Origin: a virus
Reading direction: 5' to 3' (one strand)
Length of the DNA stretch: 27,704 nucleotides
Virus record (IMG/VR): IMGVR_UViG_3300025815_002614
Span: 1 to 27,704 of that record
Below are positions 8,538 to 26,392 of this stretch, one piece after another. Below the pieces are notes generated by a model that was given only the letters and a program-made list of their open reading frames with translations, searched no databases and was not told the origin of the DNA. A program made the position numbers and the translations under genes. The first letter of the stretch is position 1. Every line of letters starts with the position of its first letter.

Positions 8538-8546
8538 TTTAATTGA

Positions 8547-9305
8547 ATGAATTGTATTTTTATTTCGGTTAGAAATTCTTCTACCAGACTTCCAAACAAG
8601 GCAATATTAGATTTGTGTGGCAAACCTACCATTCAGCATCTGATTGAAAGTATGATGAATAGTAAGTCTGCAGATAAAATTATACTGTGTACTAGTGATA
8701 GGGAAGAAGATGATGTTCTATGTAATATAGCATCAAATTGTGGGATAGAATATTTTAGAGGTTCATTGAATGATAAGTTAGTTAGATGGAGAGATGCCTG
8801 TAAAGAATATGAAGTAGATTTCTTTGTTAATGTTGATGGCGATGATCTATTCTTTGATGTTGATCTAGCAGATATTGTAATTGATCAGTACAAAAACGAT
8901 CCTTGTGATTTTATAGATGGTCATGGTCTTTACAATGACGTTTATGGGATAAAAACAACCGCCTTAAATGAAGTGTGTAAAATTAAGGATAGTGATTCTA
9001 CAGAATACATTAGATTATATTTTACAGAAACAGGAATTTTTCAAACTAGAAAGATAAAAGATATTCCTACCAAATATATTAAAGGAAATATCAGAATGAC
9101 TTTGGATTATCCAGAGGACTTTGAGTTCTTTAAGAAGGTCATAGAAGGGGTATTATCGGAACAATTAACGTTTGACAACATATTAGGATTCATTTATAAT
9201 AATCCTGAAACCTCTCATATAAATTTTTTTCTTGATGAGACGTGGAAAGAAAATCAAAAGAAAATAAAACATTTTAAATTGAAGAATGAACAATCAACAA
9301 ATTAG
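8547..9305 (+). CDS. CMP-sugar synthetase-like cytidylyltransferase (SpsF/NeuA type)
   Basis: A 252-residue nucleotidyltransferase. The N-terminus IFISVRNSSTRLPNKAILDL (about 4-23) is the nucleotide-binding region of acylneuraminate/KDO cytidylyltransferases and SpsF proteins (usual form R..S.RLP.K.l...g.p). GKPTIQHLI, ILCTSDREEDDVLCNIA, a YFRGS segment and a metal-site VNVDGDDLFFD (about 92-102) follow in the expected order. It would activate a sugar acid with CTP. It lies ten bases behind the double-tRNA element and overlaps the aminotransferase gene by 20 bases. Together with the NeuB-like gene at 12231 this suggests nonulosonic-acid activation; the exact sugar is not visible. Confidence 0.82.
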   Translation: MNCIFISVRNSSTRLPNKAILDLCGKPTIQHLIESMMNSKSADKIILCTSDREEDDVLCNIASNCGIEYFRGSLNDKLVRWRDACKEYEVDFFVNVDGDDLFFDVDLADIVIDQYKNDPCDFIDGHGLYNDVYGIKTTALNEVCKIKDSDSTEYIRLYFTETGIFQTRKIKDIPTKYIKGNIRMTLDYPEDFEFFKKVIEGVLSEQLTFDNILGFIYNNPETSHINFFLDETWKENQKKIKHFKLKNEQSTN

Positions 9306-10449
9306 AGATCTTGTTTCTAATGTATTTGAAAGAAATAATGAATATAGTTTGACACAGGAGTTTGAAGAAAAATTTTCTGAAAAGTTTGGTATAAAGTATT
9401 CTGTGTCAGTTAATTCTGGAACGTCAGGTCTTCATGCTGCTCTGTATGCCGCTGGAGTGGGTCCTGGAGATGAAGTTATTCAACCTTCTGTGACCGTTGT
9501 TATGGACTCTTATGTGACTCTCTACATGGGAGCAACGCCAGTATTTGTTGATATTAATCCTAATACTTGGAATATTGATGTTGGTGAGATTGAGAAAAAT
9601 ATTACTGAAAAAACAAAAGCAATTATCGTTGTATCTTTGTATGGTCTTCCTGTAGATATTGATCCAATCATGGAGTTAGCAAAAAAACATAACATTGTAG
9701 TTATTGATGATTCTGCTGAAACTGTATTGTCCGATTACAAAGGAAACATCTCAGGAACTTGTGCAGACATTGGTGTTTATAGTTTTGAAAAATCCAAGCA
9801 TATGACCTCTGGTAGTGAAGGTGGTATGGTTGTCACTAACAATGAGACTTTTGCTGAGAGGGCTAGAAAGTTTGCTGGCATTGGATATAAGAATCTTACC
9901 GCGACTGCTGGTAGAACCAGTCTTGCTTCTTCTGTATTTCAGGATCCAAACTATGAAAGATTTGATAGTATTGGATATAACTATAGAATGAATATAATTA
10001 CTGCTGCTTGTGGAATTGCTCAACTTGAAGTTCTTGATGAATTGGTTAATAATAGAAAGAAAATTGGAGCAATGTTTCTCAAAGCAGTTGAAGGTTGCTC
10101 TTGGATAAAAACACAAGAAGTATTTGAATATTGTGAGCACAGTTATTTCACCTTTGCTCTTCTTTACAATGGTGAACAAGAGCATGGCATATCTTGGAAA
10201 AAGTTCTATAATATGTACTTGAATATGGGTGGAGATGGTTTTTATGGTTGTTGGAAAAATCCATACCTAGAACCATCTTTGAGAGATAAAAATTTTGATG
10301 GAAGAGAATATCCTGTTGGATCTTTTCCTATAGCAGAAGAATATCAGAAAAAGATAATGGCGTTTAAAACGAATTATAAATCTCTTGATCTTGCCCGAGA
10401 AAAAATTTCCATACTTAGTAACCTTATAGACAAAATAGGGAGAGACTAA
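9286..10449 (+). CDS. DegT/DnrJ/EryC1/StrS-family PLP aminotransferase
   Basis: A 387-residue PLP enzyme of normal length for the family. SVNSGTSGLHAALYAAGVGP (about 41-60) is the cofactor phosphate region, VIDDSAE (139-145) holds the Asp that contacts the pyridine nitrogen, and YSFEKSKHMTSGSEGGM carries the predicted Schiff-base Lys171. These enzymes transaminate keto-sugars, mostly nucleotide-linked. It overlaps the cytidylyltransferase upstream and abuts the TIM-barrel gene downstream, so it is very likely part of the same amino-sugar pathway (for example an amino group on a nonulosonate precursor). The substrate is not assignable from sequence. Confidence 0.9.
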   Translation: MNNQQIRDLVSNVFERNNEYSLTQEFEEKFSEKFGIKYSVSVNSGTSGLHAALYAAGVGPGDEVIQPSVTVVMDSYVTLYMGATPVFVDINPNTWNIDVGEIEKNITEKTKAIIVVSLYGLPVDIDPIMELAKKHNIVVIDDSAETVLSDYKGNISGTCADIGVYSFEKSKHMTSGSEGGMVVTNNETFAERARKFAGIGYKNLTATAGRTSLASSVFQDPNYERFDSIGYNYRMNIITAACGIAQLEVLDELVNNRKKIGAMFLKAVEGCSWIKTQEVFEYCEHSYFTFALLYNGEQEHGISWKKFYNMYLNMGGDGFYGCWKNPYLEPSLRDKNFDGREYPVGSFPIAEEYQKKIMAFKTNYKSLDLAREKISILSNLIDKIGRD

Positions 10450-11247
10450 ATGTTCGGAGTAGTTCAGGGAAGATTATCAAAATCACCAAACAATCGATTA
10501 CAATGGTTTCCTCAAGACTGTTGGCAAGAAGAATTTCATAAATGTAAAAGACTGAACTTAGATTTTGTTGAGTTGTTGGATGAAAGATCTTATAATCCAA
10601 ATAATCCAATATGGTCTTCTGTGGGAATAGATGAGATAAAGAGTGTTGTCTTAGAGACAAACAGAACGATCTATTCTTCATGTACAGACTATATTATTGA
10701 CAACTCTTTGTTGTTGGGATCTACATTGGATCATGTGCTTGATTATTTTCAAGTGAGTGAAGAACTGGGATGTAAGATTGCAATCCTTCCCCTAATGGAA
10801 GAAAGTGGAGTTACAGAAAAAAACTTTGACAAATATGTTTCTGTAGTCAGAAAGTTGTGTAACTCTACTAATCTCACAATTTGTTTGGAAACGTTATTAA
10901 ATTGTAAGACACTAAACTACTTTATTGATCAAGTAAATGTGAAAAATCTAAAGTGTGTTTTTGATACTGGAAATAGATCGCACACCAGTAAAGATTTGTC
11001 AAAAGAGATAGTATTCTTGTCAAATAAGATTGGTCATGTTCATCTCAAAGACAAAAATAAAAAGGGTGAAAATGTTTATCTCGGAACTGGTAAAGTAAAT
11101 TTTTACAGCATATTCAAATCATTAAAAGAAATTGGATACAATGAATCTTTTGTATTTGAATCGGTTAGGGGAAATGATCCCATAAAAACAATGGAACATA
11201 ACATTGAATTTATCAATTTCTTTAGAAGTGAGGTTGAAAATGAATAG
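10450..11247 (+). CDS. Sugar phosphate isomerase/epimerase-like TIM barrel
   Basis: A 265-residue protein of the xylose-isomerase-like/AP-endonuclease-2 superfamily. It opens with FGVVQGRLS and carries FVELLDER, an ICLETLLN strand end (metal-binding Glu region), a CVFDTGNRSH (Asp/Asn-His metal site) and GHVHLKDKN (His-x-His-x-Lys). These are the standard metal-ligand strands of the fold. Members interconvert ketoses and aldoses or act on sugar derivatives. Genes of this type recur next to Gfo/Idh oxidoreductases in polysaccharide loci, as here. It starts at the base after the preceding stop and overlaps the oxidoreductase by eight bases. Confidence 0.83.
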   Translation: MFGVVQGRLSKSPNNRLQWFPQDCWQEEFHKCKRLNLDFVELLDERSYNPNNPIWSSVGIDEIKSVVLETNRTIYSSCTDYIIDNSLLLGSTLDHVLDYFQVSEELGCKIAILPLMEESGVTEKNFDKYVSVVRKLCNSTNLTICLETLLNCKTLNYFIDQVNVKNLKCVFDTGNRSHTSKDLSKEIVFLSNKIGHVHLKDKNKKGENVYLGTGKVNFYSIFKSLKEIGYNESFVFESVRGNDPIKTMEHNIEFINFFRSEVENE

Positions 11248-12205
11248 AGTTTTATTTGTTGGACTTGGTGGTGCTGGTCAGAGACACTTGAGAATTTTTA
11301 GATCTCTTCTTCCAGATACTGATTTTTATGCATTCCGCAGAAACAAAAAAACTCCTCTGTTGAATCCAGATTTTACTGTGGATACTTCTACTTCAATTGA
11401 AGATAAGTATAATGTAAATTTGATTGATGATTTGGATTCTTGTTGGAATCTCAAACCAGATTTTGTTGTTGTATCTACCCCAACAAAGTTTCATTCCGAT
11501 ATTTCTATTGATGCATCTAATCATGGTGTGAATGTTTTTGTAGAGAAACCTGGATTTGTTACTCTGCAAGAAGCGGAAGAGGTGAAGGAAACATTCATCA
11601 GGAATGATACAAATTTGTTTATTTCTTTTCAACGAAGATTTCATCCATTAGTTGATATCTTTAAAGATGGATTGAATGATATTGGAAACATCATTAATAT
11701 CCAAGTTAATGTTGGTTCTTATGTTCCTTCATGGCATCCATATGAGAACTGTCTGGATCTTTATGCATTCCGTAAAGATCTTGGTGGTGGAGTTGTTCGC
11801 ACAGAATGTCATGAGATTGATTTAATCGTTTCTATATTTGGTATTCCAAATACTATTAGTGGACTAACTTCTAAACAGAGCTCTTTTGATATTGATGTTG
11901 AGGATACCGCTAATTTCATCTTTGAGTATGATAGTTTTTCTGTGTCATTCAATTTATCATTTGTTCAGAATAGGCAGGAACGCATCATAAAAGTCAATGG
12001 ACAAGATGGGTGGTTGGAATATGATTTATTAGAACAGAAAGTCACTAAAAGTAATGAAGATGTTTATGAGAAGATTAGTAATGATGATTTGTTCTTGCTG
12101 CAATCAAAGTTTTATCTAAATGAATTCTCAAAGTCCGATAACTCCTATCTTGATTCTTTGGTGAGCAATGCCAAAATCATTGACAAAATATTGAACATAA
12201 ATTAA
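11240..12205 (+). CDS. Gfo/Idh/MocA-family sugar oxidoreductase
   Basis: A 321-residue NAD(P)-dependent oxidoreductase. The Rossmann motif VLFVGLGGAGQRHLR (4-18), the STPTKFHSD strand and the family signature EKP in VFVEKPGF are all present, followed by the beta-sheet C-terminal domain with GGGVVRTECHEID (His in the catalytic region). ATG 11240 is preferred to the earlier in-frame start at 11204 because it begins four residues before the Rossmann strand and has the usual short overlap. It probably oxidises or reduces a sugar or sugar-nucleotide, in sequence with the adjacent isomerase and aminotransferase; the combination is typical of rare amino-sugar synthesis. Confidence 0.9.
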   Translation: MNRVLFVGLGGAGQRHLRIFRSLLPDTDFYAFRRNKKTPLLNPDFTVDTSTSIEDKYNVNLIDDLDSCWNLKPDFVVVSTPTKFHSDISIDASNHGVNVFVEKPGFVTLQEAEEVKETFIRNDTNLFISFQRRFHPLVDIFKDGLNDIGNIINIQVNVGSYVPSWHPYENCLDLYAFRKDLGGGVVRTECHEIDLIVSIFGIPNTISGLTSKQSSFDIDVEDTANFIFEYDSFSVSFNLSFVQNRQERIIKVNGQDGWLEYDLLEQKVTKSNEDVYEKISNDDLFLLQSKFYLNEFSKSDNSYLDSLVSNAKIIDKILNIN

Positions 12206-12230
12206 ACTGTATAGTATTGACTTATTCTTT

Positions 12231-13046
12231 ATGTACGTAATCGCTGAGATTGGAATCAATCATAATGGTTCTTTGTCCAATGCAAAAAAATTAATCAAGC
12301 AGGCATATGACTCTAAGTGTCAAGCTGTGAAATTTCAAAAAAGAGATATTGAGTCGGTATATACAAAAAAAGAACTGGACCAGTATAGAGAGTCGCCTTG
12401 GGGAACTACTAACAGACAACAAAAAGAAGGTCTGGAGTTTTCTATTGAGGAGTATAAAGAACTTTACTCTTACACTAAGGAACTTGGAATGGACTTTATT
12501 GTTTCTTGTTGGGATAGAAAGAGTGTAAAACTGGTTGAAGATAATCTCAATGTTGATTATCACAAGGTTGCTTCTGCTCTTGTCACTGATGAAGAGTTTC
12601 TGAAAGATCTTGCAGACACTGGCAAACCAATCATCCTTTCTACCGGAATGTCTACAGAAGAACAGATTGATAGGTCTGTAGAAATACTGTCTGAGAATCT
12701 TGAATACATTCTTGCCTGCACCAGCACATATCCAACTGTTGTGGAAGAATTAAATTTGAGATACATCCAAACACTTAAAGAAAAGTATCCACAATTTAAA
12801 ATCGGATTCTCAAATCATTATAGTGGATTTGAGGCTAGTTTTGGTGCTGTTGCACTTGGTGCAGAGTGTATTGAATTTCATATCACAAGTGACAGAACTG
12901 CTTATGGTTCTGATCAAGCAGCATCCATTGAACATAGTTCGGTTCTTGTTGATGGTATCTTTGTCATGCAAAAAATGATGGGAGATGGTATTAAGAAAGT
13001 GTATGATAGCGAACTTCCGATTATGAAAAAACTTAGGAGAGTATAA
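12231..13046 (+). CDS. neuB: NeuB-family nonulosonate synthase lacking the SAF domain
   Basis: A 271-residue TIM-barrel enzyme. Family motifs in order: IAEIGINHNGSL (3-14), AVKFQKRD, DFIVSCWD, KVASALVTD, ILSTGMST, ILACTSTYPT, IGFSNHYSG, and an IEFHITSDRTAYGSDQAAS segment in place of the usual EKHFT.DR...G.DH..S. The family condenses phosphoenolpyruvate with a hexosamine-type sugar to give sialic, legionaminic or pseudaminic acid. Typical NeuB proteins are about 340-350 residues and end in an antifreeze-like SAF domain that covers the active site of the partner subunit; here the protein stops after the barrel. The change of Lys-His-Phe to Phe-His-Ile suggests a shifted substrate. It starts 25 bases after the oxidoreductase. 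Confidence 0.87.
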   Translation: MYVIAEIGINHNGSLSNAKKLIKQAYDSKCQAVKFQKRDIESVYTKKELDQYRESPWGTTNRQQKEGLEFSIEEYKELYSYTKELGMDFIVSCWDRKSVKLVEDNLNVDYHKVASALVTDEEFLKDLADTGKPIILSTGMSTEEQIDRSVEILSENLEYILACTSTYPTVVEELNLRYIQTLKEKYPQFKIGFSNHYSGFEASFGAVALGAECIEFHITSDRTAYGSDQAASIEHSSVLVDGIFVMQKMMGDGIKKVYDSELPIMKKLRRV

Positions 13047-13048
13047 AA

Positions 13049-13717
13049 ATGAATTTTAAAATTGAAAGTGCAAGAAAACTTGATTTGCCAGACTTGACTG
13101 ATGCAATTGATCTTTATGAGAGAGAGGCTAGATTTTGTCAACCAACACCACACGATTCTCATTTAAGTGTTATTTTTAAACTGAGAGAAACATTTGGAGA
13201 AACATGTGATTATATGGAAATAGGATCTTTGTTTGGGTTTAGTATGGTTAATGCTACCAGAAGTAAAACAAAGGGAAAGTTTGTTGGAGTTGATTTATTT
13301 GAAAACACTGGAAAAATTTTTGTAAATGATTATAGACCAGACGTATCGGAAAGAGGACTTTCAAAGAAAAAAACAGAAACCCTAGTTAAAAAATGTAACA
13401 TTCACAATCATGAAGTAAAATTTATTTCTGGTAACTCTCAACATGATGATACCTATAAACGTGTTTTGGATGTATCAGAAGAGTTTGATGTGATGTTCAT
13501 TGACGGTGATCATTCTTTTCTGGGAACATTTAATGATTTTAAAAAATACTCACCACATCTAAGAAAAGGAGGATATTTATTATTTGATGATCAAGATTAT
13601 AATGAAATTAAAAGGGTAGTTGATATTATTAAAAATGATTATAAAGATGAATATCAGTGGATAGAATGGGATGGATATTCTCCAAAGTTTCCTGGATTCT
13701 TTTTAAAAAATGTTTGA
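13049..13717 (+). CDS. Class I SAM-dependent methyltransferase (Methyltransf_24-like)
   Basis: A 222-residue protein. MEIGSLFGFSMVNATR (about 56-71) is motif I, KFVGVDLFEN holds the acidic ribose-binding residue, and FDVMFIDGDHSFLGTFNDF (about 145-163) plus GGYLLFDDQDY are the usual metal and catalytic strand motifs of this family. The likely role is O-methylation of a glycan or sugar intermediate. It begins two bases after the NeuB-like stop and overlaps the SDR gene by eight bases. Confidence 0.85.
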   Translation: MNFKIESARKLDLPDLTDAIDLYEREARFCQPTPHDSHLSVIFKLRETFGETCDYMEIGSLFGFSMVNATRSKTKGKFVGVDLFENTGKIFVNDYRPDVSERGLSKKKTETLVKKCNIHNHEVKFISGNSQHDDTYKRVLDVSEEFDVMFIDGDHSFLGTFNDFKKYSPHLRKGGYLLFDDQDYNEIKRVVDIIKNDYKDEYQWIEWDGYSPKFPGFFLKNV

Positions 13718-14519
13718 TCTTTCCGATAAGGTTGTATTGGTAACTGGAGGTGCAGGTCTTCTGGGAAGAATGCACTCAGAGGCAATTGTTTCTAATGGTG
13801 GAAAAGTTATCATTGGTGATATCAATCTTGAATCTGCAGAAAGAATTTGTGAAGAAATCAATGAACTATATTCTCCTGTAGGACCAGGATTTTCATATGA
13901 TCCACCACTACAAAAAGCATTTTCAGTATACTTAAATGTTCTGGACAAAGATTCAATACAGAATGTTCTAGAGACGTATCCAGACATTAACGTTCTAATT
14001 AATAATGCTGCCATTGATCCTAAGGTTACTGATACAACAGGACCTTCAGGATCATTTGAATCTCTTTCTATGGAAGAATGGGATTTATCTGTTGATGTGA
14101 TGCTGAAGGGAACCTTTCTGTGTTCTCAAGTATTTTGTCCTCACTTTGAGAATAATGGTGGAGGAGTGGTCATTAACATCTCTTCCGATCTTGGAATTAT
14201 TTCACCAGATCAAAGGATATATGATGGATCAAAAAAACCAATTACATATTCTGCTGCAAAGCACGGTATCATAGGTATGACTAAGTATTTGGCAACCTAC
14301 TATGCTCAGTCAAATATTAGAGTTAATTCAATATCACCTGGTGGTGTATATGTCAACCAACCACAGGACTTTGTTGACAGGTTGACTAATTTGATTCCTA
14401 TGGGTAGAATGGCTAATAAAGATGAATATAAAGGATCTATTGTATTCCTTTGTTCGGATGCCAGCTCATACATGACTGGTCACAATTTAATCGTTGATGG
14501 AGGTAGGACTGTATGGTAG
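13710..14519 (+). CDS. Classical short-chain dehydrogenase/reductase
   Basis: A 269-residue classical SDR with all key motifs: TGGAGLLG (Gly-rich loop, 13-20), a GDINLE acidic end of strand 2 favouring NAD(H), NNAA in INVLINNAAID, a catalytic Ser in INISSDLG, YSAAKHG (Tyr and Lys), and NSISPGG. SDRs of this subtype, including PtmA-like proteins, are found in legionaminic and pseudaminic acid gene sets next to NeuB, a cytidylyltransferase and an aminotransferase. That matches this context, though the substrate is inferred. The 20-residue insertion around FSYDPPLQKAFSVYLNVLD is typical of this sugar-locus subtype. Confidence 0.9.
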   Translation: MFDLSDKVVLVTGGAGLLGRMHSEAIVSNGGKVIIGDINLESAERICEEINELYSPVGPGFSYDPPLQKAFSVYLNVLDKDSIQNVLETYPDINVLINNAAIDPKVTDTTGPSGSFESLSMEEWDLSVDVMLKGTFLCSQVFCPHFENNGGGVVINISSDLGIISPDQRIYDGSKKPITYSAAKHGIIGMTKYLATYYAQSNIRVNSISPGGVYVNQPQDFVDRLTNLIPMGRMANKDEYKGSIVFLCSDASSYMTGHNLIVDGGRTVW

Positions 14520-14530
14520 GTAATTTTTAA

Positions 14531-15103
14531 ATGTTGATAACATCATGCATGAGAAGTGCTAGTTCAAGTATGCACTTATTTTTAAAAGACTTTTTAAATT
14601 TGGATAAGGTAGTTTATCCAAGGTATACAACAAGAGATTGGAGAAATGGTGAAGGATTGAAAGATTATATGTGTTATCCTAGTAGCACAGCTTTTGAAAT
14701 AGAGAAAGAAATTTTAACGGACTGGATAACAAACAGGAAAACTATAATACAGGAGCACCTCCTTCCTATTCAGCACCATAGGGATGTTATAATGAATATA
14801 CCCAAAGACAGAAGAAAAGTTGTTGTAATGAAAAGAAATGCCGAAGATTCTTTTTCATCTCAACTTCGTAGACGTGGAGAATGTCCTTATTTATCAAAAA
14901 CAACCAATAAAAATCAATGTTTAGAATCATTTAAAAAATTTAGAAATGATATTGATTTATTTTTTCCAGAACATGATGGATTTCTTCATATTGAATTTTC
15001 TGATGTCATATCCAATCCAGATAAAGAAATTAAAAAAATATTAAATTACTGGGAATATCCATACGATTCTAATAATACTTTTAAACTGCCACATTTAAAA
15101 TGA
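14531..15103 (+). CDS. Sulfotransferase-like protein
   Basis: A 190-residue protein. ITSCMRSASSSMHLFL (3-18) resembles the PAPS 5'-phosphosulfate loop (PRSGST-like, here MRSASSS), and VVVMKRNAEDSFSSQLRR (about 97-114) resembles the 3'-phosphate motif with Arg and Ser. A C-terminal EFSDVISNPDKEIKKIL is the helix often seen after the catalytic core. It would sulfate a sugar hydroxyl, but it is shorter than most sulfotransferases and lacks an obvious catalytic His/Glu pair that I can place, so substrate and activity are uncertain. It is strongly AT-rich and overlaps the next gene by ATGA. Confidence 0.7.
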   Translation: MLITSCMRSASSSMHLFLKDFLNLDKVVYPRYTTRDWRNGEGLKDYMCYPSSTAFEIEKEILTDWITNRKTIIQEHLLPIQHHRDVIMNIPKDRRKVVVMKRNAEDSFSSQLRRRGECPYLSKTTNKNQCLESFKKFRNDIDLFFPEHDGFLHIEFSDVISNPDKEIKKILNYWEYPYDSNNTFKLPHLK

Positions 15104-15888
15104 CTTTGATTCCTAATTTAGTTTTTCATCACCACACATCTTTAGGTGATCACTATATTTGTAATGGTATAGCGCATAATTATGCAAAGCAATGTGAGAC
15201 TCTGCATATACCTTGTTCTGAGAGTAACTATGAAACTGTAAACTCTTTGTATTCGGATTTTGATAATATTGTTGTTCATCCAATGAAATTTCAATCTCCT
15301 ATCAGCAAACATGAGGTTGATGCACTAGCAGCAAAAGAGGGATGGGTAGTAACCCGAATTGGATTTGAGAAAGTTTACTATCGTAGATTTCATAGACACA
15401 ATTCTCCTGGTATAGAAGGAATACCTGTAAATTTTGATAGACAATTTTATGAAGAGGCAGATCTTCTTTATCGAAAAAGGTATGAAGATTTTCATTTACC
15501 TAAAGAGATTCCTGGTGTTGATGAGGTATATGATAAATTAGTTGGGGATGTGGATGAGTATATTGTTTTACATAAAAACTCTAGTATCAGAGATGATTAT
15601 CCTGTAGAACTTTGGTCTTGGAGACAAGCGAAGTTCAATAAGAATATTAAGGTCATAGAAATTCGAAAAGGTCAGACTTCCAACATGCTTTCTTATATGA
15701 AAGTTATTGAAAATGCAAAAGAGATTCACTGTGTTGATAGTTCGTTTTTTTGTTTAGTTGACAGTGTATCTCCCAACCTTAAAGGTGAATTGTTCTATCA
15801 TGATATGCGTGTAAACAATCACGTCCAAGTTCATTGTAATTTTTCTATTCCGAAGTGGAATGTTATGAGTTATGATTTTGTAATCTAA
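15100..15888 (+). CDS. GT-B/heptosyltransferase-like glycosyltransferase
   Basis: A 262-residue protein. The opening NLVFHHHTSLGDHYICNGI matches the G-x-GDhI-x-N N-terminal loop of heptosyltransferase-like (GT9-fold) proteins in surface-glycan clusters. Later, YIVLHKNSSIRDDYP and IHCVDSSFFCLVDSV correspond to the C-terminal domain strands where the donor binds. The directly downstream genes are HldE-like heptose activation enzymes, so a heptose donor is an attractive but inferred choice. Confidence 0.68.
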   Translation: MTLIPNLVFHHHTSLGDHYICNGIAHNYAKQCETLHIPCSESNYETVNSLYSDFDNIVVHPMKFQSPISKHEVDALAAKEGWVVTRIGFEKVYYRRFHRHNSPGIEGIPVNFDRQFYEEADLLYRKRYEDFHLPKEIPGVDEVYDKLVGDVDEYIVLHKNSSIRDDYPVELWSWRQAKFNKNIKVIEIRKGQTSNMLSYMKVIENAKEIHCVDSSFFCLVDSVSPNLKGELFYHDMRVNNHVQVHCNFSIPKWNVMSYDFVI

Positions 15889-15889
15889 A

Positions 15890-16288
15890 ATGAAGATATC
15901 ATTTGTTAATGGATGTTTTGATGTGCTCCATCCAGGGCACATCGAACTCCTGAAGTATGCCAGGTCTCTTGGTGACTATCTCATCGTTGCTATCGATTCC
16001 GACAGGAAGGTGGCAGAGATGAAGGGTCCCGAGAGACCTATTTTTTCGCAGCATGATCGATCTATAATGCTAGCCGCGATAAGGCACGTGGATGTAGTTC
16101 ATGTATTTGACACCAAAGAAGAGTTGGAGGATTTGCTTGAATCCATCTCTCCTGATATAATGGTTGTAGGTTCTGACTGGAAAGGAAAAGAAGTAGTAGG
16201 TTCACAGTATGCCAAATCAGTTCGGTTTTTCGATAGACTCGGAGATTACTCCACCACAAAAACAATTCAAGGTTCTTCTTATCGGTGA
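15890..16288 (+). CDS. rfaE2: HldE C-domain-like sugar-phosphate nucleotidyltransferase
   Basis: A 132-residue nucleotidyltransferase of normal length for a stand-alone RfaE2 domain. FVNGCFDVLHPGHIELL carries the HxGH signature (H14-P-G-H17). Then come DYLIVAIDSD, KGPERPIFSQHDR (usual KGP.RP......R), DIMVVGSDW and a terminal GDYSTTKTI in place of the family ISTT region. It would transfer a nucleotide to heptose 1-phosphate or a related sugar phosphate. Its last 80 bases also encode the start of the PfkB-type kinase in another frame. The order is nucleotidyltransferase then kinase, the reverse of the fused E. coli HldE. Confidence 0.87.
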   Translation: MKISFVNGCFDVLHPGHIELLKYARSLGDYLIVAIDSDRKVAEMKGPERPIFSQHDRSIMLAAIRHVDVVHVFDTKEELEDLLESISPDIMVVGSDWKGKEVVGSQYAKSVRFFDRLGDYSTTKTIQGSSYR

Positions 16289-17000
16289 TACTTGCATTGA
16301 TGAATATATCTACGGAATGTGTGAACGTCTTAATCCAGAGGCACCTGTTCCTATTCTCAAGTATAGTAAAACTGAGAGAAAAAGCGGAATGGCATGGAAT
16401 GTTAAAAACAATCTTCAATCATTTGATGTAGATGTTTGTATTCTTACTCATAAAGAAAACATTATAAAAAGTAGATATATTGATAAGAGGTATAATCAAC
16501 AAATTCTGAGAGTTGATTGTGAGAATTATGTAAAACCAATGGACTATGAAATTTCATATGAAGGATATGATGCTGTAGTTATATCAGATTATGATAAAGG
16601 TTTTCTAACATCTCAAAAGATCACTGAAATAGTTACAAATGCAAAAATTCCTGTATTCATTGATAGCAAAAAAACATCTCTTCCAAAGTCAAATTGTTTT
16701 ATTAAAATCAACGACTCCGAATTAAAACTATTGAATGGTTCTTATGATAATATCATTGTCACCAGAGGATCTAATGGTGCCGACTATCAGGGTAAAAACT
16801 ATTCTGGATTTGATGTTGGTGTTTTTGATGTTTGTGGTGCTGGTGATACGTTTTTATCTGCACTTGTTTACTTTTATTTGAAGTATGGTAGAATAGAGAG
16901 AGCAATACCTTATGCAAATAAAGCAGCATCAATTGCTGTTTCTAACTTTGGAACATATGTTCTAACTGAAAAAGATATTAAAGAAATTAATGACATCTAA
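16209..17000 (+). CDS. rfaE1: HldE N-domain-like PfkB sugar kinase
   Basis: A 263-residue ribokinase-fold protein. VLLIGDTCIDEYIYG then RLNPEAPVPIL is the substrate-side signature of heptose 7-phosphate kinases (GD.MLDRY..G....ISPEAPVPV). VVISDYDKGFLT matches their SDYGKG, and FDVCGAGDTFLSAL contains the catalytic Asp213 in GAGD. ATG 16209 is the only usable start: no ATG, GTG or TTG lies in frame between it and the first core strand, so the 80-base overlap with the nucleotidyltransferase gene seems genuine. It is shorter than the approximately 315-residue HldE kinase domain, with losses mainly in the lid region. The GGAANVA motif is changed to SGMAWNV. Confidence 0.83.
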   Translation: MPNQFGFSIDSEITPPQKQFKVLLIGDTCIDEYIYGMCERLNPEAPVPILKYSKTERKSGMAWNVKNNLQSFDVDVCILTHKENIIKSRYIDKRYNQQILRVDCENYVKPMDYEISYEGYDAVVISDYDKGFLTSQKITEIVTNAKIPVFIDSKKTSLPKSNCFIKINDSELKLLNGSYDNIIVTRGSNGADYQGKNYSGFDVGVFDVCGAGDTFLSALVYFYLKYGRIERAIPYANKAASIAVSNFGTYVLTEKDIKEINDI

Positions 17001-17805
17001 ACTTACAATTTACAAACCAGAGTATCCTGGTTATGCCGAAAATCCTACTTATGAAAATAACTGTAGGGAGATGATGGGTATCTGGAGAGAGAATGGTTGG
17101 GTAGATTTTTCTTTTATTTCTGGTGATTATCTCTGGGCAGATAAAGAACAAACATTTCTTCTATGGGATAGGGCACGGATTGATGATCGACATGTTCCAC
17201 CTTTTGTAACTGGATTATTTGCTAATACTGTTCCAGAGCATCCTCAGATACATGCATGGACATTCTTTTCTAGACATCCACGAAAAGTATGTGAACAAAT
17301 TGATAAAGGTGTTAAATCTTATGATGATAGACCAATCAAGTCTATCTTCATGGGAAAAGTTGAAAATCAAATTCAAGCAAATGGAAGACTCAATTATGAT
17401 TGGTCTCAAGGGATAGAAGAGTTTGTTATGCCTCTTCAAGGTGGTGGACCAAATGCTTACCCCTATACTCAGGAAGAGTATCAGGAAAGGTTGGCATCTT
17501 CAAAATTTGGATTGCTATTACCTGGATATGGTCCCAAGTGTAATAGAGATATTGAATGTATGGCTCATGGCACAGTTCCAATTGTTGTGGATGGTTGTGA
17601 TGTTAAGAATTATCACGAACCTTGGATTGAGGGAGTTCATTATGTTAAAGTGAAAACACCGCAAGAAGTGAAAGAAAAATTAAATTCAATATCTAAGAAT
17701 GAATGGGAGTACATGCATAATGCATGTAGGAGTTGGTATGAAAGAAATGCCTCTCCTCTTGGGTCATTCAAACTTACTGAAATGTTAATTGAAAAATGGA
17801 GATGA
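16990..17805 (+). CDS. Exostosin-like glycosyltransferase
   Basis: A 271-residue protein. The C-terminal half has YQERLASSKFGLLLPGYGPK (about 159-178) and then CNRDIECMAHGTVPIVVDG, the donor-binding pattern of exostosin/GT47-like and related GT-B enzymes (F.L.P.G....R..E.m..G.iPVi). The N-terminal half carries a W-rich acceptor region with SIFMGKVEN as the first strand of the second domain. The linkage made is unknown. It overlaps the kinase gene by 11 bases. Confidence 0.78.
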   Translation: MTSKLTIYKPEYPGYAENPTYENNCREMMGIWRENGWVDFSFISGDYLWADKEQTFLLWDRARIDDRHVPPFVTGLFANTVPEHPQIHAWTFFSRHPRKVCEQIDKGVKSYDDRPIKSIFMGKVENQIQANGRLNYDWSQGIEEFVMPLQGGGPNAYPYTQEEYQERLASSKFGLLLPGYGPKCNRDIECMAHGTVPIVVDGCDVKNYHEPWIEGVHYVKVKTPQEVKEKLNSISKNEWEYMHNACRSWYERNASPLGSFKLTEMLIEKWR

Positions 17806-17809
17806 TGTT

Positions 17810-18544
17810 ATGAATTTAATGTGTATGGGTAGTGAATATGGTCGGTGGTGTTTTGTTGATCATCAAGACTTGTATAATTCTATCGTTATCAGTGGCGGAG
17901 TTGGGGAAGATATTTCTTTTGATGTAGATTTTGCATCAGAATATAACGCAAAGATTTTTTTGTATGATCCAACACCAAGAGCAATCAAGCATTTCGAAAT
18001 GGTGTCTGAAAACTTTGGTAATGCTTCTACTATTGATTATGTTCCTGGTGGAGATCAACCAGTTGAAACTTATGATCTATCAAATCTAACATCTGATAAT
18101 TTTACCTATGTTCCATATGCTCTATGGAGTGAGGAGACAACAGTTAAGTTCTTCAAACCACTGAAAGACGAATGGGTCAGTCATTCAATCTCTAATATCA
18201 ATCGGGGATACGATCAAAATTCTAAAGAGTATATTGAAGTTGAAACTATAAAACTTTCTGATCAAATCGAAAAAATGGATAAACTTCCATCTCTGCTTAA
18301 ACTTGATATTGAAGGTGCAGTTCTTGAAGTACTGAAAGATCTATTTGAAAATAATATTTTTATCAACCAACTCTGTGTAGAATTTGAGGAAGTTCAAAAT
18401 CCAAACAAGATAAACAACTCTAGAGTAATTGAAGTTGAAAAATTATTAAAAGATAATAATTATACCTGTGTCCATGCTGATGGATGGAATGAATGTAATA
18501 GATTATACCTTAAAAATGATTTCTTGAATTCTATTTTATTATGA
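17810..18544 (+). CDS. FkbM-family methyltransferase-like protein
   Basis: A 244-residue protein. VISGGVGEDISFDVDFASEY (about 30-49) replaces the usual VDVGAN.G motif I, and KIFLYDPTPRAIKHF is the motif II strand typical of FkbM proteins (v.afEP.p.a...). LSDQIEKMDKLPSLLKLDIE, with KLDIEGAVLEVLKDL, is the highly characteristic FkbM segment (lKiDvEG.E..vl). The likely role is sugar O-methylation. ATG 17810 is preferred over the in-frame TTG at 17789, which lies inside the preceding gene. Its stop overlaps the next ATG. Confidence 0.85.
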   Translation: MNLMCMGSEYGRWCFVDHQDLYNSIVISGGVGEDISFDVDFASEYNAKIFLYDPTPRAIKHFEMVSENFGNASTIDYVPGGDQPVETYDLSNLTSDNFTYVPYALWSEETTVKFFKPLKDEWVSHSISNINRGYDQNSKEYIEVETIKLSDQIEKMDKLPSLLKLDIEGAVLEVLKDLFENNIFINQLCVEFEEVQNPNKINNSRVIEVEKLLKDNNYTCVHADGWNECNRLYLKNDFLNSILL

Positions 18545-18861
18545 AAAGATATTGCTTTGACATTGACGGAACTATTTGCAATAATACTTGGGGTAAGTAT
18601 GAGGAAGCACTTCCATATCAAGATAGAATCGAATCTATTAATCGATTATATGATTCTGGAAATCATATCACATATTTTACTGCAAGAGGTATGGGTACTT
18701 GTGATGGAGATGTTCTGAGGGCATATGCAAAATTATACAATTTTACATATGAACAGTTATCTGAGTGGGGATGTAAGTTTCATGAACTGCGACTTGGAAA
18801 ACCAAATGCAGATTACTACATAGATGATAAAGGAATAGCAGATGGAAACTTCTTTGGATAA
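18541..18861 (+). CDS. Small HAD-superfamily phosphatase-like protein
   Basis: A 106-residue HAD-fold protein. FDIDGTICNN (6-15) is motif I with both Asp residues (D7 and D9), YFTARGMG is the Thr-containing motif II, a Lys is available in LRLGKPNADYY, and YIDDKGIADG is motif III with its Asp pair. This minimal, capless form occurs in polysaccharide loci and in phage genomes. It could remove phosphate from a heptose bisphosphate or a nonulosonate 9-phosphate, but no substrate determinants are visible. It overlaps both neighbours (ATGA upstream, 20 bases downstream). Confidence 0.82.
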   Translation: MKRYCFDIDGTICNNTWGKYEEALPYQDRIESINRLYDSGNHITYFTARGMGTCDGDVLRAYAKLYNFTYEQLSEWGCKFHELRLGKPNADYYIDDKGIADGNFFG

Positions 18862-19198
18862 CTTTGTCCCCAAAGGATGGGGATATGAAAAATGGATTGT
18901 CAATAATGAAGATTATTGTGGAAAGATACTCTTCTTTGTGAAAGGTATGAGATGTTCATGGCACTATCATAAAATTAAAAAAGAAACATTCTACATTCAT
19001 TCTGGATCCATAAGACTTTTATATTCTTTTGATAACTCTTTGGAATCTGCGGAAGAAATAATCCTCACAAAAGGTGATAAGTTTGATATTCCAGTAGGAC
19101 TTAGACATCAAATGATTGCTATAGAAGATACGGAGTTATTTGAATTTTCTACTCAGCACTTTGAGAAAGATTCTTATCGGATAGAAAAAGGTGATTGA
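18842..19198 (+). CDS. Cupin-fold protein (sugar isomerase-like)
   Basis: A 118-residue single-domain cupin. GWGYEKWIVNNEDYCGKILF is a common lead-in of cupins related to mannose-6-phosphate isomerase type II tails. CSWHYHKIKKETFYIHSG (His41, His43, Glu48) is cupin motif 1, and FDIPVGLRHQMIA supplies the His of motif 2. Such proteins bind a metal and can isomerise or epimerise sugars, or act as regulators. Here it lies between the HAD and glycosyltransferase genes, so a sugar-modifying role is likely. Confidence 0.82.
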   Translation: METSLDNFVPKGWGYEKWIVNNEDYCGKILFFVKGMRCSWHYHKIKKETFYIHSGSIRLLYSFDNSLESAEEIILTKGDKFDIPVGLRHQMIAIEDTELFEFSTQHFEKDSYRIEKGD

Positions 19199-19203
19199 TT
19201 TTG

Positions 19204-19959
19204 ATGTGTAAAAATCTTCTAGTTTATCCCTTATATAAAATTAATGGAAAAGAAACCGAATATCAGAAACACAAAAAGTTTGTAGATAAAAATATTGAGA
19301 TAGTTAAAAAGTTTGATTGTGTTGATGATATAATAGTTCTCGGAAAAGAAGTAGGATCCTGGTCTGAGATGATCAGTGATATTTTGTTTTCCATAAAAAA
19401 ATTAGTATCTGATGGATCAAATGTTTTGTTCTCTGAAGCAGACACTATTTTTACCAAAAAGTTTTCTGAGATATATTCTTTAGAAAAATTTATGATGTTC
19501 TCCAAGTGCGAAGAACATTCTAATATAGATTCATCCCTAACAAAAGAATTTTATTTTAATGGTGGATTTATATATTATCCTCATAATATGAACAGTGAAC
19601 TTTGGAAACATGTTGAGGATATTGATAAGTATGATTCTATAAAAATGACTGGAAATTTATACGAAGTCATTATGAATAGAATGTATTATTCTCAGTTTCC
19701 TAGTATGGATCATGGTTTGGAATACTTGGAGAATCTTAATATATCCAAATACAATTGGTGTATAAGGTCTCCAGCAGACTTTAAAAATTTGAGTCATATA
19801 CATTTTTTAAATATGTCTCATTATACATCAGATGAAAGTAAATTTTTTGGGTTCTGGTATGAGGATTTTTTTGATAGAATATATAAGTTGGTTATTAATG
19901 ATTGTCTATCTGACTCCATAATAATTGAGTTGCAAAATTATTACGATCTGAAAGTATGA
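19204..19959 (+). CDS. GT-A-like glycosyltransferase, divergent
   Basis: A 251-residue AT-rich gene. The protein opens NLLVYPLYKINGKETEYQKH and has VLFSEADTIFTKKFSEIY (about 78-95), where E-A-D follows a hydrophobic strand like the DxD metal site of GT-A folds. FYFNGGFIYYPHNMNSELW then matches the 'N-G-G' acceptor-site segment of GT8-like enzymes. Donor and acceptor are unknown. ATG 19204 is chosen over the TTG at 19195, which lies inside the preceding gene. The gene overlaps the next one by ATGA. Confidence 0.68.
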   Translation: MCKNLLVYPLYKINGKETEYQKHKKFVDKNIEIVKKFDCVDDIIVLGKEVGSWSEMISDILFSIKKLVSDGSNVLFSEADTIFTKKFSEIYSLEKFMMFSKCEEHSNIDSSLTKEFYFNGGFIYYPHNMNSELWKHVEDIDKYDSIKMTGNLYEVIMNRMYYSQFPSMDHGLEYLENLNISKYNWCIRSPADFKNLSHIHFLNMSHYTSDESKFFGFWYEDFFDRIYKLVINDCLSDSIIIELQNYYDLKV

Positions 19960-20660
19960 ACCTTATTATAGAATACTTTAACTCTCTCAATCATATGAGG
20001 AATGGAGAGTTTCTCTATTGTCTTCATCAAAATCTTGGAAATGATTTGATTGATAGTGTGTATCTTTTTATGGAAGAAGATGCAGAACTTTATTTTGATT
20101 CTCCTAAGATTAAGAAGGTAGTTAGAAATAAGAGACCAACTTATAAAGAAATTTTTGATTTCTGCAATGAGAATCTGAAAGACCAGATTTGTGTCGTTTC
20201 CAATGCCGATATCATCTTTGATGATACTCTGAGATACTTTAAGAGTATTAAGATGGAAAAGAACTTCTATGCACTGAGTCGCTGGGAGATTTCTACTGGT
20301 GATGGAAAGAACTGGGAGATTGAGCCTTTTGATAATGCTGCATCACAAGATTCTTGGATCTTTAAGACACCTATTCCAACTTCTGATGCAATGAATTATA
20401 CAATGGGAGTTCCTGGATGTGATAATAAGATTACCTATAACATGAGAGAACTGGGATATACCTGCAGAAATCCTGGAAAGAAAGTCATAACTATACACTT
20501 TCATCCAACTAACTTTAGAACATATAGTCCGAAAGATGATAGAGTTCCTGGACCATATCTTCTGGTTGCTCCATGTGACAACTTCAATGGAACACCAAGT
20601 TACATTGACATTGATGGGTTTGATGAATATGGGAGACCATTTAAAAGAGTGAAAGAGTAA
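19956..20660 (+). CDS. GT-A-like glycosyltransferase, last gene of the glycan island
   Basis: A 234-residue protein. ICVVSNADIIFDDTL (about 78-92) is a strand plus A-D-I metal-type turn as in GT-A sugar transferases, and FYALSRWEI and SQDSWIFKTPI follow, as in glycosyltransferase-like proteins of viral and bacterial glycan loci. GVPGCDNKITYNMRELGY supplies the late Asp-containing acceptor segment. The C-terminus is basic and Pro/Gly-rich. It resembles the preceding gene in overall layout but not closely in sequence. A terminator/promoter junction follows and closes the island. Confidence 0.72.
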   Translation: MNLIIEYFNSLNHMRNGEFLYCLHQNLGNDLIDSVYLFMEEDAELYFDSPKIKKVVRNKRPTYKEIFDFCNENLKDQICVVSNADIIFDDTLRYFKSIKMEKNFYALSRWEISTGDGKNWEIEPFDNAASQDSWIFKTPIPTSDAMNYTMGVPGCDNKITYNMRELGYTCRNPGKKVITIHFHPTNFRTYSPKDDRVPGPYLLVAPCDNFNGTPSYIDIDGFDEYGRPFKRVKE

Positions 20661-22432: not shown

Positions 22433-22578
22433 ATGTTACGAACCTTAAAGGACTTGTAACATTGTTCTCCCTGCCGCTTGACCGAGACTAGGCAGGGTTA
22501 CCAATCCGTCTCTCATATCTTCGCCTGAGGGTGGCGAAGAAATAAGTACCTCCACCATTTCCCTGATGGATCTACTTA
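22433..22578 (+). promoter_or_regulatory. Structured psbA 5' leader
   Basis: Four inverted repeats lie in series between promoter and start codon: ATGTTAC 22433-22439 with GTAACAT 22456-22462; CCCTGCC 22469-22475 with GGCAGGG 22491-22497; TCTTCGCC 22518-22525 with GGCGAAGA 22533-22540; and TAAGTA 22543-22548 with TACTTA 22573-22578. There is no Shine-Dalgarno in the 12 bases before ATG 22591. No gene is visible in this 197-base interval. Confidence 0.6.
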
Positions 22579-22590: not shown

Positions 22591-23670
22591 ATGACTGCTA
22601 CACTTTCACGTCAAAAACAATCGAATACTTGGGAACAGTTCTGCGAGTGGGTTACTTCCACTGACAACCGTCTTTATGTTGGTTGGTTTGGAGTCCTGAT
22701 GATTCCTTGCCTGCTTGCTGCTACTATCTGTTTCATCGTTGCCTTTATCGCTGCTCCTCCTGTGGACATCGATGGCATCCGTGAACCCGTTGCTGGTTCA
22801 CTCATGTACGGAAACAACATCATCTCTGGTGCTGTTATTCCTTCGTCCAATGCTATTGGACTGCACTTTTACCCCATCTGGGAAGCTGCTTCCCTAGATG
22901 AGTGGCTCTACAACGGTGGTCCTTTCCAACTGGTTGTCTTCCACTTCCTTATCGGTATCTACGCTTATATGGGTCGTGAGTGGGAACTTTCCTACCGCCT
23001 GGGTATGCGTCCTTGGATTTGCGTTGCTTACAGTGCTCCTGTCGCTGCTGCTTCTGCTGTCTTCCTGGTCTATCCTTTCGGTCAAGGTTCTTTCTCTGAT
23101 GCGATGCCCCTGGGTATCAGTGGCACCTTCAACTACATGCTTGTCTTCCAAGCAGAGCACAACATCCTGATGCACCCCTTCCACATGCTGGGTGTCGCTG
23201 GTGTCTTCGGTGGTTCTCTGTTCAGTGCGATGCACGGTTCTCTGGTTACTTCCTCGCTGGTTCGTGAAACCACCGAGAACGAGTCGCAGAACTATGGTTA
23301 CAAGTTCGGTCAAGAAGAAGAGACCTACAACATCGTTGCCGCACACGGTTATTTCGGACGCCTTATTTTCCAATATGCTTCCTTTAATAACTCCCGTTCG
23401 CTGCACTTCTTCTTAGCGGCGTGGCCAGTCGTCGGTATCTGGTTCACCGCTCTGGGTGTTTCTACGATGGCCTTTAACTTAAATGGCTTTAATTTCAACC
23501 AGTCTGTGATTGATTCACAGGGTCGTGTTATTAACACCTGGGCTGATGTTCTTAACCGTGCTGGTCTGGGAATGGAAGTTATGCATGAGCGTAACGCCCA
23601 CAATTTCCCATTGGACCTGGCAGCTGCCGAGTCAACTCCTGTTGCTCTGACTGCTCCTACCATCGGTTGA
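22591..23670 (+). CDS. psbA: Photosystem II D1 protein
   Basis: A 359-residue, uninterrupted D1 protein. The redox and metal ligands all fall at standard numbering: Tyr161 (TyrZ), Asp170, His190, His198 (P680), His215 and His272 (non-haem iron), Ser264 (QB site), His332, Glu333, His337, Asp342 and the processing site after Ala344. Residue 130 is Glu (GREWELSY), the form associated with high-light D1 variants in cyanobacteria. There is no group I intron, unlike psbA of some other cyanophages. D1 is the fastest-damaged subunit of photosystem II, and phage copies replace it during infection. It has its own promoter, a long structured leader and a terminator, so it is a single-gene unit. Confidence 0.99.
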
Positions 23671-23723: not shown

Positions 23724-24224
23724 ATGTCTGATATTGATGTTGCTTGGTTAGCGGGAATACTTGAAGGTGAGGGACACTTTGGTTACAATAAAAGAAAATA
23801 CACACTCAAATCAACTGGTGAAGTAAAATTCTATTATGAACCATATGTTCATCTTCAAATGACTGATAAGGATGTTGTTTATAAAGTAGCATCTTTATTT
23901 CAATCAAAGAGCGTTAGAACATATCAAGATAAAAGAGGTAATCGTAAGTTACTTTACAGAGTTGGGTGTAATGGTAAAATACGCCTTCCTTCCCTGCTAA
24001 AATCTATCTTTCCTCATATGGGGGAAAGAAGAAAAACAAAAATTACAATTTTATTATTTTTAATCATGAACAAACAAGACTTTGTGACTTATATGTCTGA
24101 AAACGGCATGACTTCTGATGATGCTACTGGAATGTATGAGCATCTAAATGATAGGTTTGATGGAGACTGGAAACAAGCATCAGAATACTTGGAAAAACTT
24201 TATTCATATCTTCAACAGAATTGA
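23724..24224 (+). CDS. LAGLIDADG-type free-standing homing endonuclease
   Basis: A 166-residue protein. AWLAGILEGEGHFGYNK (about 7-23) is a single LAGLIDADG motif of the 'LAGxLEGEGxF' subtype; Glu or Asp in this motif binds the catalytic metal, and one copy implies action as a dimer. YVHLQMTDKDVVYKVASLF is the usual second strand-helix unit, and PSLLKSIFPHMGERRKTKI ends the core. The last 52 residues, after an internal Met (codon at 24066), do not look like part of the fold and may be a fused small gene. There is no clear ribosome site; the start lies directly behind the psbA terminator. Its location between psbA and psbD suggests the target is one of those genes in related phages. Confidence 0.85.
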   Translation: MSDIDVAWLAGILEGEGHFGYNKRKYTLKSTGEVKFYYEPYVHLQMTDKDVVYKVASLFQSKSVRTYQDKRGNRKLLYRVGCNGKIRLPSLLKSIFPHMGERRKTKITILLFLIMNKQDFVTYMSENGMTSDDATGMYEHLNDRFDGDWKQASEYLEKLYSYLQQN

Positions 24225-24667: not shown

Positions 24668-25729
24668 ATGGTATCTTCAACACTTTCACAACCAATTCAA
24701 CAAAGGGGGTGGTTCGATGTCCTGGATGACTGGCTCAAGCGTGATAGGTTTGTTTTTGTCGGTTGGTCTGGCTTGCTTCTATTCCCGACTGCTTATCTTG
24801 CTCTTGGCGGGTGGCTTACAGGGACCACCTTCGCAACTTCATGGTACACCCATGGGATTGCGAGTTCATATCTTGAGGGGTGTAACTTTCTTACTGCTGC
24901 TGTATCTACTCCTGCTGATGCTCTCGGACATAGCCTTCTACTCCTTTGGGGTCCTGAAGCTCAGGGAGATTTCGTCCGCTGGGTCCAACTTGGGGGACTC
25001 TGGACTTTTGTGGCGCTCCATGGAGCCTTCAGTCTTATAGGATTCATGCTTCGGCAGTTTGAGATTGCACGTTTAGTAGGGATTAGACCATACAATGCTA
25101 TTGCGTTCTCAGGTCCTATCGCAGTATTTGTTTCAGTATTCCTGATGTATCCGCTGGGACAATCGTCCTGGTTCTTTGCTCCTTCCTTTGGAGTTGCTGC
25201 TATCTTCCGCTTCCTGCTCTTCCTTCAGGGTTTCCACAACTGGACGCTCAACCCGTTCCATATGATGGGAGTTGCTGGTATACTGGGAGGAGCACTGCTC
25301 TGTGCCATTCATGGTGCTACAGTAGAAAACACTCTGTTTGAAGACGGTGAACAAGCAAACACTTTTAAGGCGTTTGAGCCTACTCAAGAAGAAGAAACCT
25401 ATTCGATGGTTACTGCTAACCGTTTCTGGTCACAGATATTCGGTATTGCCTTTAGTAATAAGCGTTGGCTTCACTTCTTTATGCTTTTTGTACCCGTCAT
25501 GGGTCTTTGGACTTCTTCTATTGGTATCATTGGTCTCGCTCTTAACCTGCGTGCTTACGACTTTGTGAGTCAGGAGATTGAAGCAGCAGTCAATCCGGAA
25601 TACGAAACATTCTATCTTAAAAATCAGCTGCTAAACGAAGGCTTGCGTGCTTGGATGGCACCAGTAGATCAGCCACACGAATCGTTTGTATTTCCAGAGG
25701 AAGTTTTGCCCCGGGGCAATGCCTTGTGA
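24668..25729 (+). CDS. psbD: Photosystem II D2 protein
   Basis: A 353-residue complete D2 protein. Tyr161 (TyrD), His118 (accessory chlorophyll), His190, His198 (P680), His215 and His269 (iron) are in place, allowing for one extra N-terminal residue against standard numbering. The C-terminus PRGNAL is typical. GGAGG at 24660-24664 supports ATG 24668. D2 pairs with D1 to form the reaction centre. In cyanobacteria psbD usually overlaps psbC, but here it stands alone between terminators, as in other cyanophages that carry both psbA and psbD. Confidence 0.99.
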
Positions 25730-25755: not shown

Positions 25756-25779
25756 AAAAGACCCTTCGGGGTCTTTTTT
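25756..25779 (+). terminator. psbD terminator
   Basis: AAAAGACCC (25756-25764) pairs with GGGTCTTTT (25769-25777) over a TTCG tetraloop and ends in a T-run. Confidence 0.94.
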
Positions 25780-25780: not shown

Positions 25781-25789
25781 TGCTATAAT
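25781..25789 (+). promoter_or_regulatory. Extended -10 promoter upstream of the HNH gene
   Basis: TGCTATAAT matches the extended -10 form (TGnTATAAT). No -35 is visible because that region is the psbD terminator. The expected start is about 25796, near the end of the left hairpin arm. Confidence 0.5.
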
Positions 25790-25844
25790 ACCTTCATTTA
25801 GAAAAACTAAAATGTATAAATAGTAATAGTTATGAATGAAGGTA
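25789..25844 (+). repeat. 10-bp perfect inverted repeat around the HNH start codon
   Basis: TACCTTCATT (25789-25798) is exactly complementary to AATGAAGGTA (25835-25844), which covers codons 2 to 5 of the HNH gene. In RNA containing both arms, the start region would be closed in a hairpin. Confidence 0.75.
25815..25822 (+). promoter_or_regulatory. T4-late-type promoter (TATAAATA)
   Basis: An exact TATAAATA lies ten bases before the HNH ATG and between the arms of the inverted repeat. RNA begun from it would lack the left arm. Confidence 0.68.
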
Positions 25845-26392
25845 TGGTAAGGAAAAGTAGAGTAGGTCAAACCTTTAATAGATTGACAATTGAAAAGGAG
25901 TATCAATCTCCGTGTAAAAAATATGTTCTCTGCGAGTGTTCTTGTTCTTGTGGAGGTAAAACAACCAAAACAAGAAGGCACGATATTGTATCTGGAAAAA
26001 TAGTATCTTGTGGATGTTTTAGATTAGAAAGGTTGATAGAAGTTTCTCCTAACAATCCAAGAAGTAGAAAAGAACCTGGAACTCGCAAACAGGATGATAG
26101 AAGATATAAGATGTTTCATAACGCTCAACACAGAGCAAAGAAAAAAGGAATACCCTTTACAATTTCTATAGAAGACATTATAATACCAGAAACTTGTCCT
26201 CTACTTGGAATACCATTAGTATCTACAAATAATAAGAGAGACCCAAGAAATCCAAGTTTAGACCAAAAAGTTCCTGGTGAAGGATATACTCCAGATAATA
26301 TATGGGTAGTATCATCACGGGCAAATTGGATTAAGTCCGATGCTACAATACAAGAACTCAAAACACTGGTTGAGAACTTAGAGAAGTTATGA
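25832..26392 (+). CDS. HNH-type (possibly EndoVII-like) free-standing endonuclease
   Basis: A 186-residue protein in two parts. The N-terminal 70 residues, VGQTFNRLTIEKEYQSPCKK then CECSCSCGGKTTK and VSCGC, form a Cys-rich AP2/zinc-like DNA-binding module common in phage endonucleases. The C-terminal half, with CPLLGIPL, SLDQKVPGEGYTPDN and WVVSSRANWIKSD, is the His-Me/HNH-type catalytic region of phage homing nucleases (usual C..LG..l...SlDri.p..GY...N..v.s..aN..K). The canonical His is replaced by Gln in SLDQ, so activity should be checked. A perfect hairpin and a late promoter overlap its start. It sits just after psbD. Confidence 0.83.
   Translation: MNEGMVRKSRVGQTFNRLTIEKEYQSPCKKYVLCECSCSCGGKTTKTRRHDIVSGKIVSCGCFRLERLIEVSPNNPRSRKEPGTRKQDDRRYKMFHNAQHRAKKKGIPFTISIEDIIIPETCPLLGIPLVSTNNKRDPRNPSLDQKVPGEGYTPDNIWVVSSRANWIKSDATIQELKTLVENLEKL

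Follow-up and report, generated by a model that had tools for sequence, protein, structure and literature searches.

Gene content of the psbD-HNH locus

The window, that is, the whole stretch of DNA that we analyzed, is a 27.7-kb IMG/VR virus record (27,704 nucleotides) and belongs to a cyanophage. Toward its right end it carries psbA (22591-23670), a nuclease-like ORF matching PHROG 5046 (23724-24224), psbD for the photosystem II protein D2 (24668-25729, + strand; Pfam Photo_RC, 1e-72) and an HNH-type endonuclease gene (25832-26392 if counted from ATG 25832, + strand; PHROG 3322). The closest relatives of its D2 protein are those of the freshwater Synechococcus phages DSL-LC02 (95.8% identical) and DSL-LC03. 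psbD, the would-be source of read-through transcripts, lies directly upstream of the HNH gene on the same strand, with a hairpin resembling an intrinsic terminator in between (AAAAGACCC TTCG GGGTCTTTT plus a T run, an inverted repeat at 25756-25779, + strand). As this terminator separates the two genes, read-through from psbD into the HNH gene may be rare. Other genes occupy the position behind psbD in the psbD-bearing relatives DSL-LC02, DSL-LC03 and L208, and the HNH nuclease gene is probably mobile.

The HNH protein matched the endonuclease family PHROG 3322 (2.5e-31) and, less strongly, the profile of a PHROG for endonuclease VII; sequence searches of Pfam, NCBIfam and the PDB yielded no matches. 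An AlphaFold2 model, computed from an alignment of the window and IMG/VR sequences only, reached a pLDDT of 83 and matched the fold of the HNH enzyme PacI (3ldy; probability 1.00, E 0.013). We rejected membership in the I-TevI protein family, which is GIY-YIG and intron-encoded, for this free-standing, HNH/Endo VII-like gene, as well as a relationship to the DHHRN-type nuclease F-CphI, for which BLASTP returned E 1.3 over 8 residues.

Elsewhere in the window, the ATG of the 23724-24224 ORF directly follows a terminator-like hairpin of psbA (AGAGGGG/CCCCTCT plus a T run), the loop of which holds no late motif, and a PhotoRC-II RNA (RF01717, 61.9 bits) lies upstream of psbA at 22457-22553. A wcaG RNA (RF01761, 98 bits) at 3573-3672 precedes a long run of apparent sugar or surface-polysaccharide genes (about 3745-20660), inside which two weak tRNA matches stand side by side at 8406-8531.

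A hairpin and a late motif at the start of the HNH gene

The initial annotation had described a perfect 10-bp inverted repeat at 25789-25798 and 25835-25844, and this repeat is present and in fact one base pair longer at its outer end (ATACCTTCATT at 25788-25798 with AATGAAGGTAT at 25835-25845). In the predicted RNA fold, one U-G and one A-U pair extend the stem to 13 bp, with the left arm at 25788-25800 and the right arm at 25833-25845 (both + strand, and located by repeat search, folding and covariation), and a further 5-bp stem forms inside it between AACTA (25805-25809, + strand) and TAGTT (25827-25831, + strand). This fold has an energy of -15.8 kcal/mol (z -4.94), which none of 200 shuffled sequences equaled. 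The loop holds an exact late promoter motif, TATAAATA, at 25815-25822 (+ strand), just as had been claimed, with a predicted transcription start at about 25828; the late motif of cyanophages is NATAAATA (PMC2984593). A search of the window against Rfam found no family at the hairpin.

Within the window, neither element stands out by number. Perfect inverted repeats of at least 10 bp with loops of at most 60 nt occurred 4 times versus 2.1 expected, those of at least 11 bp once versus 0.55 expected, and TATAAATA at 25815-25822 is the only exact copy, with shuffled sequences averaging 2.5 copies. Counts of TATAAATA per genome were likewise rejected as a signal, because they did not exceed a reversed-pattern control and were strand-biased in the same way as the genes. 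As repeat and motif are each present at chance number, a comparison with relatives was needed, and we regard the hairpin as real because of its position over the start and its conservation with compensating changes.

What the right arm covers depends on the start codon. Counted from ATG 25832, it would span codons 2-5, as the initial annotation had it. In the closest clade, however, ATG 25832 exists only in the window, L002 (with identical copies) and L004; L005-L010 have ATA at that position and share ATG 25844, which is probably the true start. Because ATG 25844 is shared and ATG 25832 mostly absent among close homologues, the right arm more likely lies over the Shine-Dalgarno-like GAAGG (25838-25842) and the start itself than over early codons. 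More distant homologues have GAAGG or GAGG in the right arm, 4-7 nt before the ATG, and the arm is thus probably ribosome-site sequence, with a spacing between GAAGG and ATG 25844 of only 1 nt in the window.

Stems and covariation in homologous loci

We gathered HNH homologues from IMG/VR together with Synechococcus phage S-SKS1. Most close homologues sit directly behind psbD; in S-SKS1, the gene upstream of HNH is annotated as D1 and matches D2 by sequence, and DNA similarity to the window begins at the hairpin. The stems around the late motif are strongly diverse in sequence, as seen in ACCTTCATT/AATGAAGGT of the window, ACCTTCAGTT/AACTGAAGGT of L005, AACCTCATTTA/TAAATGAGGTT of L016, GACACGAACTATGA/TCATAGTTCGTGTC of L018, TTCCAAACTATG/CATAGTTTGGAA of L038, AGGGGTTAAAA/TTTTGACCCCT of L083 and TTTTACCAC/GTGGTAAAA of L166. 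The arms covary. Among the 12 sequences of the window's clade, 91% of cells were paired, five pairs had changed on both sides, and the covariation score was 0.184 versus 0.089 ± 0.025 after shuffling, a value reached by 0 of 500 shuffles, with at most 0.057 when the arms were slid against each other. A second clade (15 sequences) gave 0.198 versus 0.096 ± 0.017 (0 of 500; slid at most 0.090). Kinship among sequences can by itself beat such shuffles without any structure; the control with slid arms speaks against such an artefact, as does the concordance between separate clades.

The check on compensating changes that had been proposed for homologues came out in favor of the hairpin, in that pairing is kept by such changes in two clades. 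The pairing is not universal: about half of the unique homologues pair weakly or have lost it. By strict scoring, it was strong in 24 of 56 unique loci, which were scattered in patches across the protein tree (at least 11 state changes). This scoring overlooks the designs of L171-L182 and L174, in which the left arm sits on the motif or behind it. Some clades kept the late motif with little pairing. Hairpin strength did not differ between loci with and without a terminator, and we therefore rejected terminator presence as a predictor of hairpin loss. Free duplex pairing of wide flanks, in which cognate arms were compared to non-cognate ones, proved too permissive and was rejected as a sole test. 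Among departures from perfect stems in the homologues, G-U and A-C were equally frequent, so this count does not tell RNA pairing apart from a DNA palindrome.

Several individual loci deserve mention. Upstream of the nuclease start, L083-L087 have two stems, AGGGGTTAAAA/TTTTGACCCCT and ATACTTTT/AAAAGTAT, that overlap as alternatives and enclose the same late motif; this could be a two-state leader. L065 combines a right arm as in L018 with a left arm like that of L012, by recombination between the arms or one-sided decay. At the psbD starts of L039, L174 and L171, weaker stems surround NATAAATA, with the right arm on an AGGAGG-like ribosome site.

Predicted late and sigma70-like promoters upstream of the HNH gene

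The late motif is nearly constant: of the 53 unique psbD-linked loci, 52 had NATAAATA between -50 and -4 relative to the HNH start, versus 75 of 647 other ORFs (11.6%) in the same DNA. In addition, about half of the unique HNH loci have a sigma70-like promoter composed of TTGACT or TTTACA and an extended -10 of the TGnTATTAT type (with variants), separated by exactly 17 nt; it ends at the late motif, and the left arm lies within its spacer. In the window's clade, one finds TGnTATAAT directly before the left arm instead, which in the window is the extended -10 TGCTATAAT at 25781-25789 (+ strand), with a predicted start at about 25796, inside the left arm. RNA from either type of sigma70-like promoter would lack the left arm entirely or for the most part. 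L208, an HNH-less relative, carries psbD, a terminator and the same TGnTATAAT behind psbD; hence the HNH cassette may have been inserted right after a -10 that was already there, and the extended -10 at 25781 may predate the insertion. Early and late promoters that overlap are known from RB49 and have been suggested for S-PM2 (PMC2984593).

These promoters speak against the idea that hairpin-free RNA is purely late, since conserved sigma70-like promoters would yield it in early-type RNA as well. As they too would bypass the hairpin, our model shifted from a late switch to a filter against read-through.

Predicted accessibility of the start

We folded RNAs beginning either 85 nt upstream, representing read-through, or at the predicted late start. 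Across 55 unique HNH loci, read-through RNA had a mean unpaired probability of the start 0.26 below that of late RNA, compared to a drop of 0.06 for 100 other late-motif genes from the same loci (Mann-Whitney 1.3e-10, for sequences that are related and not independent). The largest difference was that of the window, where ATG 25832 had 0.20 in read-through versus 0.99 in late RNA. For the region of ATG 25844 in nascent RNA, the predicted values were 0.08 for read-through, 0.74 for the sigma70 start and 0.82 for the late start; in longer own-promoter RNA, GAAGG can pair with ACCUUU near 25870, about 30 nt downstream, leaving 0.31-0.34 unpaired. The computations support the earlier proposal that a hairpin over the start would form in read-through RNA alone and that initiation near 25828 would drop the left arm.

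Predicted start hairpins at other nuclease genes

When every NATAAATA site in the collected DNA was scanned for stems spanning it, the same arrangement came up at other endonuclease-like genes. A GIY-YIG gene (Pfam GIY-YIG, 2.7e-11; L007:430-1044, minus strand, and L217-L235) has a perfect or near-perfect stem of 16-23 bp around TATAAATA, with the ATG directly after it and compensating changes in seven variants. At an HNH/AP2-type nuclease gene (L297-L306, about 1430-1503), a conserved stem of 11-13 bp, AAGTCTTGGCG/CGCCAAGACTT, surrounds NATAAATA, and the scan further returned a gene of the Endo VII type, together with a weaker match to a homing endonuclease. For stems scoring at least 24, an ORF lay at the right arm in 32 of 38 cases on the sense strand versus 0 of 23 on the opposite strand.

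In a scan of six cyanophage genomes or contigs (S-SKS1, DSL-LC02, DSL-LC03, S-PM2 and two large contigs), 7 of the 10 strongest start hairpins at late motifs belonged to nuclease genes, versus 2 nuclease genes among 20 random late-motif genes, many of which were virion genes (Fisher p 0.0017); this sample was not fully blind, because three of the genomes were known beforehand to carry this HNH family. F-CphI of S-PM2 has TATAAATA and showed no start hairpin. Whether free-standing nuclease genes of cyanophages recurrently employ a start hairpin around their own promoter, one that arose or was rebuilt separately at HNH, HNH/AP2, GIY-YIG and Endo VII-like genes, acts as a read-through filter and can serve as a search signature, is in our judgement evenly poised between yes and no.

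Discussion

We consider it likely that the hairpin gates translation of the nuclease gene, itself probably mobile: read-through RNA would be silent and RNA from the gene's own promoters translated. Transcripts running in from psbD would hold both arms and fold into the 13-bp hairpin with its short inner stem, which would bury the ribosome site and the start codon so that no nuclease is made. Transcripts from the gene's own promoters would start inside or after the left arm, at about 25796 (extended -10) or about 25828 (late motif), could not form the hairpin, and would be translated. The nuclease gene would in this way be uncoupled from psbD transcription and follow its own promoters, the late one being the most conserved. 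We infer promoter activity, read-through and the translational effect from sequence and modeling.

A narrower form of this gate, a strict temporal switch of the I-TevI type in which early read-through is silent and the nuclease purely late, appears unlikely to us. The presence of the late motif in almost all loci and the known T4 precedents favor it, but the conserved sigma70-like promoters would bypass the hairpin too, and overlapping early and late promoters have the phage precedents given above; a filter against read-through fits better than late-only expression. Of the I-TevI-like control put forward in the initial annotation, the T4-type design, the predicted fold and the covariation hold up, while corrections are called for by the sigma70-like promoters, the probable start at ATG 25844, the weak or lost pairing in about half of the unique homologues and the lack of kinship to I-TevI.

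That the palindrome acts as DNA is improbable in our assessment. Under this alternative, the arms would be an operator bound by the nuclease or another dimer that represses transcription, with the RNA hairpin incidental. It draws on the position of the arms, which flank or overlap both promoters, on the equal frequency of G-U and A-C departures, and on the known autorepression by T4 intron endonucleases, I-TevI repressing its own late promoter (PMC2988022). However, the operator of I-TevI resembles its homing site and not a palindrome (PMC2988022), and whereas the arms vary in sequence and spacing and the left one also in position, the right arm directly adjoins the start codon. Furthermore, an ORF follows on the sense strand only, and in L171-L182 and L174 the left arm coincides with the late motif or follows it, an arrangement that keeps the RNA logic and does not keep a flanking operator. 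More remote still is chance or a passive remnant, a decaying inverted repeat that travels with a mobile gene to no effect: repeat and motif counts at chance level in the window and the many homologues with weak or lost pairing are as it would predict, but compensating changes in three alignments, the fixed position over starts and the recurrence at unrelated nuclease genes are not.

The start-hairpin trick of T4 has been described for a handful of T-even endonuclease genes. In I-TevI, I-TevII and I-TevIII, a hairpin sequesters the ribosome site on upstream RNA, and, as proposed for the window gene, the promoter is placed so that its RNA misses the left part of the hairpin (PMC2988022). Those genes are intron-encoded (I-TevI and I-TevII being GIY-YIG) with a Shine-Dalgarno sequence about 8 nt before the AUG, whereas the window gene is a free-standing HNH gene behind psbD, has its start very close to GAAGG, and possesses additional sigma70-like promoters. 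SegB of T4 and MobE of Aeromonas phage Aeh1 are free-standing nucleases with a start hairpin and a late promoter, of which MobE is likewise HNH (PMC2988022); MobE lies within a ribonucleotide reductase gene region rather than behind psbD in cyanophages, and, unlike in SegB and MobE, the stems of the window family are diverse in sequence and covary over many loci. F-CphI of S-PM2 resembles the window gene as a free-standing nuclease behind a photosystem gene (psbA) and has TATAAATA about 30 nt before its start, but it is an Endo VII-type (DHHRN) enzyme and has an antisense RNA in place of a start hairpin (PMC2984593). The late T4 genes e and soc, which are not mobile nucleases, also have their ribosome site hidden on long early RNA (PMC2988022).

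An RNA structure over the start and a late transcript free of the left arm, as in I-TevI, SegB and MobE, are both predicted here, from folding, covariation and motif spacing. The predicted working principle is clearly the same; the gene family and the group of hosts are new, sigma70-like promoters overlap, and we infer the functional steps from sequence analysis and folding models. What is new is that the device occurs in a cyanophage, that its arms covary, and that it apparently recurs at nuclease genes unrelated to one another; the open-access literature that we searched held no earlier report of a start-hairpin device in cyanophages.

The covarying stems of unrelated sequence in cyanophages provide evolutionary evidence of selection on the structure itself, and the device offers a genome-scan signature for nuclease genes of this kind. 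If the gate indeed recurs, nuclease genes could follow photosynthesis or virion genes that are strongly transcribed and yet escape co-expression with them. The recurrence suggests that selfish cutting genes obey a general rule in limiting the harm done by their insertion behind busy phage genes, psbD being one.
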